A stretch of 64,000 bases of DNA, taken from NCBI RefSeq assembly GCF_000377405.1, contig NZ_KB905025.1, positions 1 through 64,000 of the forward strand, in the 5' to 3' direction. Positions 31,422-58,541 of the stretch are shown piece after piece. The notes beneath the pieces were generated by a model. That model ran no database searches, was not told where the DNA came from, and worked only from the letters and a program-made list of their open reading frames with translations. A program made the position numbers and the translations under genes. This DNA comes from Thioalkalivibrio sp. ALE31 (GTDB lineage Bacteria > Pseudomonadota > Gammaproteobacteria > Ectothiorhodospirales > Ectothiorhodospiraceae). Position 1 is the stretch's first letter. Every line of letters starts with the position of its first letter.

Positions 31422-31713
31422 CCCAAGGGAGACGCTGATTGAATCGCACGTCCGCGTTGGCGCCCCCTGTTTTCCGAGACAAGGCGCGTCGTGCAGCGGG
31501 TAGTGGTTCTACCCGCAAGCGGCGCAACGCAGGATCGGGGAACAGGGGGCACCAACCCCACAAGCCATTGAAAGCCGGGGCTCGGCCGCTTTTGCGCGCG
31601 CACGGCGTTACGGCTCCCTTGTGCAGAATGACTGCACGGCGGTCACCGCGCCTTGTTCGCACGCAAAAGCGAATCGAGCGCGGACGCGCGATTCAATCAG
31701 CGTCTCCCTAGGG
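31422..31713. repeat. Structured dispersed element, copy A
   Basis: Occupies most of the ~430-bp gap between thrS and the MBL gene. The 31-bp arms 31426-31456 and 31679-31709 are inverted with one mismatch. Inside, 31457-31471 pairs with 31541-31555, 31496-31503 pairs with 31509-31516, GTGCAG/CTGCAC hairpins around 31630, and 31479-31488 complements 31647-31656. The core is strongly similar to 58270-58507, but the arms differ in sequence. No consistent reading frame is conserved between copies, so it is probably a folded RNA or non-autonomous mobile DNA. The remaining 31285-31421 should hold the thrS promoter; no clear boxes were seen. Confidence 0.8.
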
Positions 31714-35190: not shown

Positions 35191-35243
35191 ACTGAAACCG
35201 GGGAAACACTGATCAATGTTTCCCAAAGGCTTTCTGTTTCAGT
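35191..35243. repeat. Nested palindrome (solo arm-like)
   Basis: GGGAAACA (35201-35208) pairs with TGTTTCCC (35217-35224) around CTGATCAA, and an outer ACTGAAAC/GTTTCAGT pair brackets it (35191-35198, 35236-35243). The inner sequence GGGAAACACTGATCAATGT resembles the terminal arm of element B (GGGAAACACGGATCCATGT). It could be a REP-like unit or a terminator after bufC. Confidence 0.55.
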
Positions 35244-58234: not shown

Positions 58235-58541
58235 ACCCAGGGAAACACGGATCCATGTACACGCTCGCGTTGGCACCCCAGGTTTTCCGAGACAAGGCGC
58301 GGTCCGCAGCCGGTAGTGATTCTACCGGCCCGTTTTTGATGGATGCGGGCCGCAATGCAGGATCGGGGAACCTGGGGTGCCAACCCCGAAGGGGCTCGGC
58401 CGCCCGTTGTGACCAAAAACGGGCGCGCGCACGGCGTTGCGGCTCCCTTGTGCAGAATGACTGCACCGCAGTCACCGCGCCTTGTTCGCACGCAAAAGCG
58501 ACTCGAGCGCGAGCGTGTACATGGATCCGTGTTTCCCTAGG
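58235..58541. repeat. Structured dispersed element, copy B
   Basis: Fills most of the ~550-bp gap between tRNA-Ala and the phosphodiesterase gene. Arms 58239-58269 and 58508-58538 are perfect 31-bp inverted repeats. Inside, 58270-58284 pairs with 58369-58383, 58309-58316 with 58322-58329, 58299-58307 with 58345-58353, 58401-58408 with 58418-58425, and 58450-58455 with 58461-58466. An alternative helix is 58292-58303 with 58474-58485. The core matches copy A closely, while helix sequences differ by compensating changes. Both copies end CCCTAGGGG. 58069-58234 and 58542-58616 hold no other clear feature. Confidence 0.85.

Follow-up and report, generated by a model that had tools for sequence, protein, structure and literature searches.

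A mobile intergenic palindrome of Thioalkalivibrio with covarying arms, two inverted hairpin modules and a possible folded single-stranded DNA form

The window analyzed here, the first 64,000 nucleotides of contig NZ_KB905025.1 of Thioalkalivibrio sp. ALE31, carries two copies (A and B) of an element in which complementary arms of about 31 bp surround two hairpin modules of about 100 nt, inverted relative to each other. Copy B occupies positions 58238-58537 on the plus strand; its limits, of the form N-A-GGG...CCC placed at Y^T, are taken from an alignment of 142 copies and from empty sites, and the T at 58538 is a target base lying outside the copy. The left arm (58239-58269, 31 bp, plus strand) is followed by module 1 (58270-58383, plus strand), which scores 100.4 bits against R1, a 99-nt covariance model of the left half of the element, and whose stems covary in 42 copies and across genera. 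Next come a small central hairpin, CCCC-GAA-GGGG (58384-58394, plus strand), with a loop length that differs among copies, and module 2 (58395-58507, minus strand), an inverted and diverged copy of the module with an R1 match at 58423-58493 on the minus strand (21.8 bits). The right arm (58508-58538, plus strand) is defined by its complementarity to the left. Copy A (31425-31708, plus strand) has the same N-A-GGG...CCC form and the same parts: left arm (31426-31456, plus strand), module 1 (31457-31555, plus strand; R1, 115 bits), a central CCCC...GGGG hairpin (31556-31580, plus strand), module 2 (31582-31677, minus strand; R1, 37 bits, minus strand) and right arm (31679-31709, plus strand). 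The right half of the element is an inverted, diverged copy of the left, its consensus aligning to the left half with a score of 63.5 against 30 +/- 4.6 for shuffled sequences. Element length ranges from 265 to 343 bp.

The window also contains an arm-only mini-palindrome with the same end motif and no body (GGGAAACACTGATCAATGTTTCCC, 35201-35224, plus strand). Similar body-less palindromes of about 25-40 bp, made of the element ends only (e.g., CTAGGGAGACGCTGATAAATCAGCGTCTCCCTAG), occur at loci L078, L079, L108 and L109; the ends alone may be mobile, or may be the leftover of a deletion. At loci L093, L351 and L092 the element is shortened, with most of one module gone and both arms kept, consistent with deletions guided by the stems.

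The pairing for which the two copies, given there as 31422-31713 (A) and 58235-58541 (B), were singled out in the initial annotation was reproduced on recomputation. The arms are complementary at 30 of 31 positions in A (31426-31456/31679-31709) and at all 31 in B (58239-58269/58508-58538), and a comparison of the left arm of A with that of B shows differences at 11 of 31 positions. The inner helix 58270-58284/58369-58383 pairs at 15 of 15 positions in B and at 14 of 15 in its counterpart in A, and the helix 58309-58316/58322-58329 (8 of 8) contains a C-G pair in B that is G-C in A. Extended outward, the arms of B pair at 33 of 34 positions, and the RNA fold of B reaches -204.7 kcal/mol, against -124.9 +/- 5.4 for shuffled sequences (z -14.8). 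The same annotation held that coding is not what is conserved, and no conserved protein was found in the element; nor did it match a known transposon, or any family of Rfam release 15 at gathering or relaxed thresholds. A candidate pseudoknot, P2 (ACAAGGCGCG/CGCGCCTTGT), pairs in 89% of cases with none of its six pairs covarying; with this, and with the two inverted modules accounting for the repeat, it was dropped.

Searching the whole genome and mapping copy number, as the initial annotation had proposed, showed that the pair is not isolated. The host genome, a 2.77-Mb draft, holds at least 40 scored copies and 102 candidates, and the 13-bp end motif GGGARACRCTGAT occurs in it 155 times with at most one mismatch (once for the reversed control). 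Tens of copies are present in each of 16 of the 29 other same-genus genomes searched, and none in the remaining 13, so that the genus as a whole has hundreds. At the level of sequence, no clear DNA match was found in the other, nearby genera searched. When named genomes were scanned with a pattern, more than 105 stretches matched; all among the matches listed are from Thioalkalivibrio, including T. versutus, T. thiocyanoxidans, T. halophilus and further strains. In plasmids, phages and E. coli nothing close was found, save one module match in plasmid pAcX50f of Azotobacter chroococcum.

That pairing in the element is under selection is strongly supported. Of the 86 pairs followed through 42 diverse copies, 33 have changes at both partners, compared with 9-16 in slid controls; counted by cell, 177 are changed on both sides (14-22 slid) and 95.5% pair. 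The arms account for both-side changes at 21 of their 30 pairs and the module 1 stems at 10 of 32, and 107 double Watson-Crick changes are inferred. Arm mismatches per 30 positions number 1.5 within a copy, 5.4 between two random copies, and 3.1 between a copy and its nearest relative. Hairpins grow and shrink between copies with the stem retained. A very conservative tree-based null for column pairs leaves two pairs past E=1, both of them true helix pairs. The initial annotation would have given up selection on pairing had many copies lacked significant covariation; the copies are many, and covariation is present.

A covariance-model search of relatives, likewise proposed at the outset, recovered the same architecture outside the genus. 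At E <= 0.001, R1 matches 26 of 272 sampled Gammaproteobacteria outside the genus, usually with several copies per genome, and ten genomes from other classes of the phylum (Proteobacteria); the best of the matches outside the genus reaches 1e-16, and the weakest, near 1e-4, call for caution. Whole elements in other genera span about 265-320 bp and consist of an arm, a module, a short hairpin, an inverted module and an arm. Arm sequences are unrelated between lineages (e.g., AGTACTCTTTCAAGG, AACCCGGCAACC, AGGGAATCTCTGCACG) and are complementary over 24-40 bp; such arms were found in about 15 other genomes, where many ends fit YT^A...T^R. Of the cells in 29 modules taken from other genomes, 93.8% pair (37-39% slid) and 342 are changed on both sides (59-72 slid), and the unpaired AAGGCGC and GCAACGC are nearly fixed across the module alignment. 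The single-stranded DNA fold of a relative has a z of -17.7. Sequence searches would mostly miss such an element, as its letters change while its fold stays, and genomes annotated with unique intergenic palindromes may hold the same element.

Three side observations may be added. A single-module version with 31-bp arms and a span of 151 bp (L384, about 1470-1640) lies just upstream of an ORF that, by eye, resembles an IS66-type first ORF. In another genus (L396), three matches to the TwoAYGGAY RNA (RF01731), at 1129-1244, 1399-1467 and 2864-2932, two of them above the gathering score, fall within 3 kb, next to a copy of the element. In E. coli, the REP has a bulged core, AAGGCG ... CGCCGCATCC; the module core AAGGCG ... 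CGCCGCA (e.g., L381, 1519-1589) is similar to it, a likeness that could be due to chance.

It could be argued that pairing is not selected at all, and that template switching and gene conversion within each copy are all that keeps the inverted repeats identical. This would account for arm identity within copies, for arms that change in concert and elements that are inverted at orthologous sites (L055/L173, L015/L142), and for arm mismatches that show no G-T bias (GU 49, AC 65), but module stems stay paired over unrelated sequences across the phylum while AAGGCGC and GCAACGC hold, and we regard it as quite improbable. Because unpaired bases are fixed and module pairs conserved, conversion alone would be insufficient; it may well contribute to the arms. 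When species are compared at orthologous sites, some elements are found turned around where they stand, the two arms having changed together (L055/L173, L015/L142, L047/L052), and others carry a swapped 15-nt segment, indicating that copies recombine and that arms are re-matched in place as well.

The element is mobile: orthologous sites are filled or empty among congeners. In three relatives the flanks of copy B directly adjoin each other with no element between them, and joined-flank queries for 14 other copies returned many empty sites. In one clean case GGTTTC^TTGACC has become GGTTTC[CAGGG..CCC]TTGACC, with five relatives empty; further clean sites are GGTCC^TGGGCG and CACC^TGAAG. At the clean sites (L010, L004, L024), N-A-GGG...CCC has entered at Y^T (C^T) with zero target duplication, a result that describes the insertion junctions. 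The target sequence has diverged at other sites (L039, L025, L017 and B), and the left flank at L010 is CC, though the target was CT. Across 142 copies, the ends read N-A-GGGARACRCTGAT; position -3 is Y, +1 is T and +3 is R, while -2 and +2 vary independently. The Y^T reading explains this pattern, with -3, +1 and +3 belonging to the target, -2 to the element and +2 to the target. The outer target bases -3 and +3 also covary in these copies (C with G, T with A; z 5.1), which suggests a preference for palindromic CTNG/TTNA targets; insertion into long palindromic sites was rejected, as flank pairing is absent beyond position 3.

With its 31-bp terminal inverted repeats, its many copies and its flanks (often CTA...TAG; 52 of 142 copies have TA both left and right), the element resembles an ordinary MITE mobilized by an IS5- or IS630-like DDE transposase that targets CTAG or TA, and TA target duplication was our initial idea. 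The clean empty sites (L010, L004, L024), however, rule that duplication out and reject any of 2, 3 or 4 bp. Left and right flanking dinucleotides vary independently, the genome has no gene of DDE_Tnp_1, the one DDE family covered by the search, and two inverted, covarying hairpin modules whose arms are specific to each lineage are not predicted for a MITE; we consider a MITE unlikely. Among the loci examined, none is a parent transposon sharing the element ends. At L091 (1706-3894; G006:C44), two pieces with matching arm variants, one a degenerate left end and the other a right half that is intact, stand 2.19 kb from each other, enclosing genes for a small membrane protein and a fatty-acid desaturase and another ORF; this may be a split or rearranged element or two remnants. 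As this one case among those loci encloses host-like genes, an autonomous parent with an ORF between the arms was set aside.

None of 104 copies lies inside a gene as placed by a simple codon-based gene finder; the element is intergenic throughout. Between tandem genes it is co-directional with transcription in 48 cases and opposed in 14 (p 2e-5), a bias that pure single-stranded DNA transposition does not predict and from which a role in transcripts is possible. One could go further and regard the element as a structured RNA with a function of its own, for example an mRNA element cut by RNase III between co-transcribed genes, with mobility secondary. Placement, the co-directional bias and the excellent RNA fold all speak for this, as does precedent, a passage in PMC2649163 describing Correia elements as able to bind and be cut by RNase III. 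Against it, module 2 prefers G.T on the opposite strand, and congeners differ in whether a given site is occupied, which means that the element is required at no single one; on balance we doubt this explanation. Across genera, own-strand G.T outnumbers A.C in each module (39:5 and 26:4, ratios whose size is inexact, the alignment having been fitted to a G-U-tolerant model), and as the two modules are inverted, DNA hairpins on both strands fit better than one RNA. A plus-strand RNA reading drawn from a within-genus G-U excess was withdrawn: the sum of 143:71 leaned on hairpin P8alt, which is missing from variant copies such as L026 and L037; the excess in module 1 alone (P3-P5; G-U versus A-C 62:44) is not significant; and both modules favor own-strand G.T across genera.

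We put at about even the chance that A and B are non-autonomous, protein-less mobile DNA, akin to giant REPINs, moving as folded single-stranded DNA by means of a Y1-type (HUH) nuclease. Of the two options in the initial annotation, a novel structured RNA or mobile single-stranded DNA, the second is the likeliest, though unproven: mobility is borne out by empty sites and zero duplication, the folded single-stranded form we infer, and a functional RNA finds no support in the strand pattern of the modules. The case for this mechanism is built on the junctions and the fold. The element, when single-stranded, would fold into a long stem topped by two hairpins; a Y1-type (HUH) nuclease acting in trans would cut it between C and T at each end, and it would be rejoined at C^T targets exposed as single strands; in the excised element, ...GTTTCCC would be joined to NAGGGAAAC. 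No excised intermediate was seen. As the fold would be required in every round, only copies with matching arms and stems would multiply, and arms would be re-matched by template-switch or gap-fill copying of one from the other and by recombination between copies.

Heavy structure, zero target duplication and CT at both junctions would also be expected of spread through RNA, whether by reverse transcription or reverse splicing of a structured RNA or as an IS110-type bridge-RNA element with a CT core. Most carriers (G001, G002, G004, G008, G010, G012), however, have no reverse transcriptase match, which speaks against a retroelement such as a group II intron or retron; the IS110-type Transposase_20 is missing from three carriers (G002, G006 and G012) and has its highest count in G009, a non-carrier; and L010 has its CC left flank despite a CT target. 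Such a route seems very unlikely to us.

As to the enzyme behind movement as single-stranded DNA, the element has in common with REP/REPIN movement by TnpAREP (PMC8266576, PMC3116915) its zero duplication, its C^T junctions, the folding of the whole element and its inverted, strand-specific units; TnpAREP cuts at CT beside REPs, on either side, and recognizes them in a strand-specific manner (PMC8266576). By analogy, the mover is probably a Y1 (HUH) enzyme acting in trans. In the class sample, a Y1_Tnp gene is present in 21 of 21 carriers at least 90% complete and in 10 of 18 non-carriers (Fisher p 0.0007), a difference confounded with genome size and general repeat load; within the genus, Y1 genes fail to separate carriers from non-carriers. 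Near RAYT/Y1 loci, the element end motif was found at 1 of 30 (about chance) and the R1 module at none of 45, and the GTAG or CGTC 5' tag of REPs is absent from the element ends. A 157-aa Y1 clade is represented in 7 of 9 carriers, and none of the non-carriers searched within the genus has it. The host genome (G000) encodes its 151-aa member at L231 1340-2020 (G000:C1, about 536600-537300), flanked by classical REPs (TGTGGGAGCGGCCTTGGCCGCGAAG); although the clade is confined to carriers, the RAYT was set aside as a proven mobilizer, the G000 member being tied to these REPs.

More tentatively, and somewhat short of even confidence, the element may represent a phylum-wide superfamily of single-stranded DNA elements with inverted modules, fixed AAGGCGC/GCAACGC and free but pairing ends, served by a nuclease that reads the fold and standing outside the known RAYT pairings. 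If true, this would be a widespread class of bacterial mobile DNA, and its hundreds of natural pairing-preserving variants would form a test series for nuclease recognition of folded single-stranded DNA. It raises the question of whether REP-type enzymes can act on elements without their tag; the co-directional bias raises a separate one, the effect of such structure within mRNA.

The initial annotation knew of no described class with this layout, and a word search of the open-licence literature found no paper describing the element. Rfam families (release 15) include covarying structures of about 100-300 nt, but none matches. Correia/NEMIS of Neisseria and ERIC/RU of enterobacteria are likewise palindromes present in many intergenic copies, bounded by terminal inverted repeats and folding in mRNA, but they lack the two-module architecture and their arms are conserved within each family; they are also smaller, and are classed as MITEs with TA duplication. 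IS200/IS605 and their non-autonomous derivatives share recognition of single-stranded hairpins, zero duplication and reconstituted target dinucleotides; the present element, in contrast, has no transposase gene and no separate left and right subterminal hairpins, being one palindrome as a whole. REPINs are the closest in the literature searched. They too are short, protein-less, intergenic palindromes of two inverted recognition units, with compensatory stem changes (PMC3116915), CT-adjacent cutting with strand-specific recognition (PMC8266576) and zero duplication; of these traits, two inverted hairpin units are seen here as plus and inverted minus R1 copies in the window and in other genera, and CT insertion without duplication at the junctions of L010, L004 and L024. 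The element differs in length (265-343 bp, whereas REPIN 16-mers lie 71 bp apart), in having its conserved part in the inner module and lineage-specific ends, and in standing without a GTAG/CGTC tag and away from RAYT genes, in genomes whose RAYT has other REPs. Since tests for the tag and for the RAYT association found neither, we do not class the element as a REPIN; it nevertheless likely works like one.
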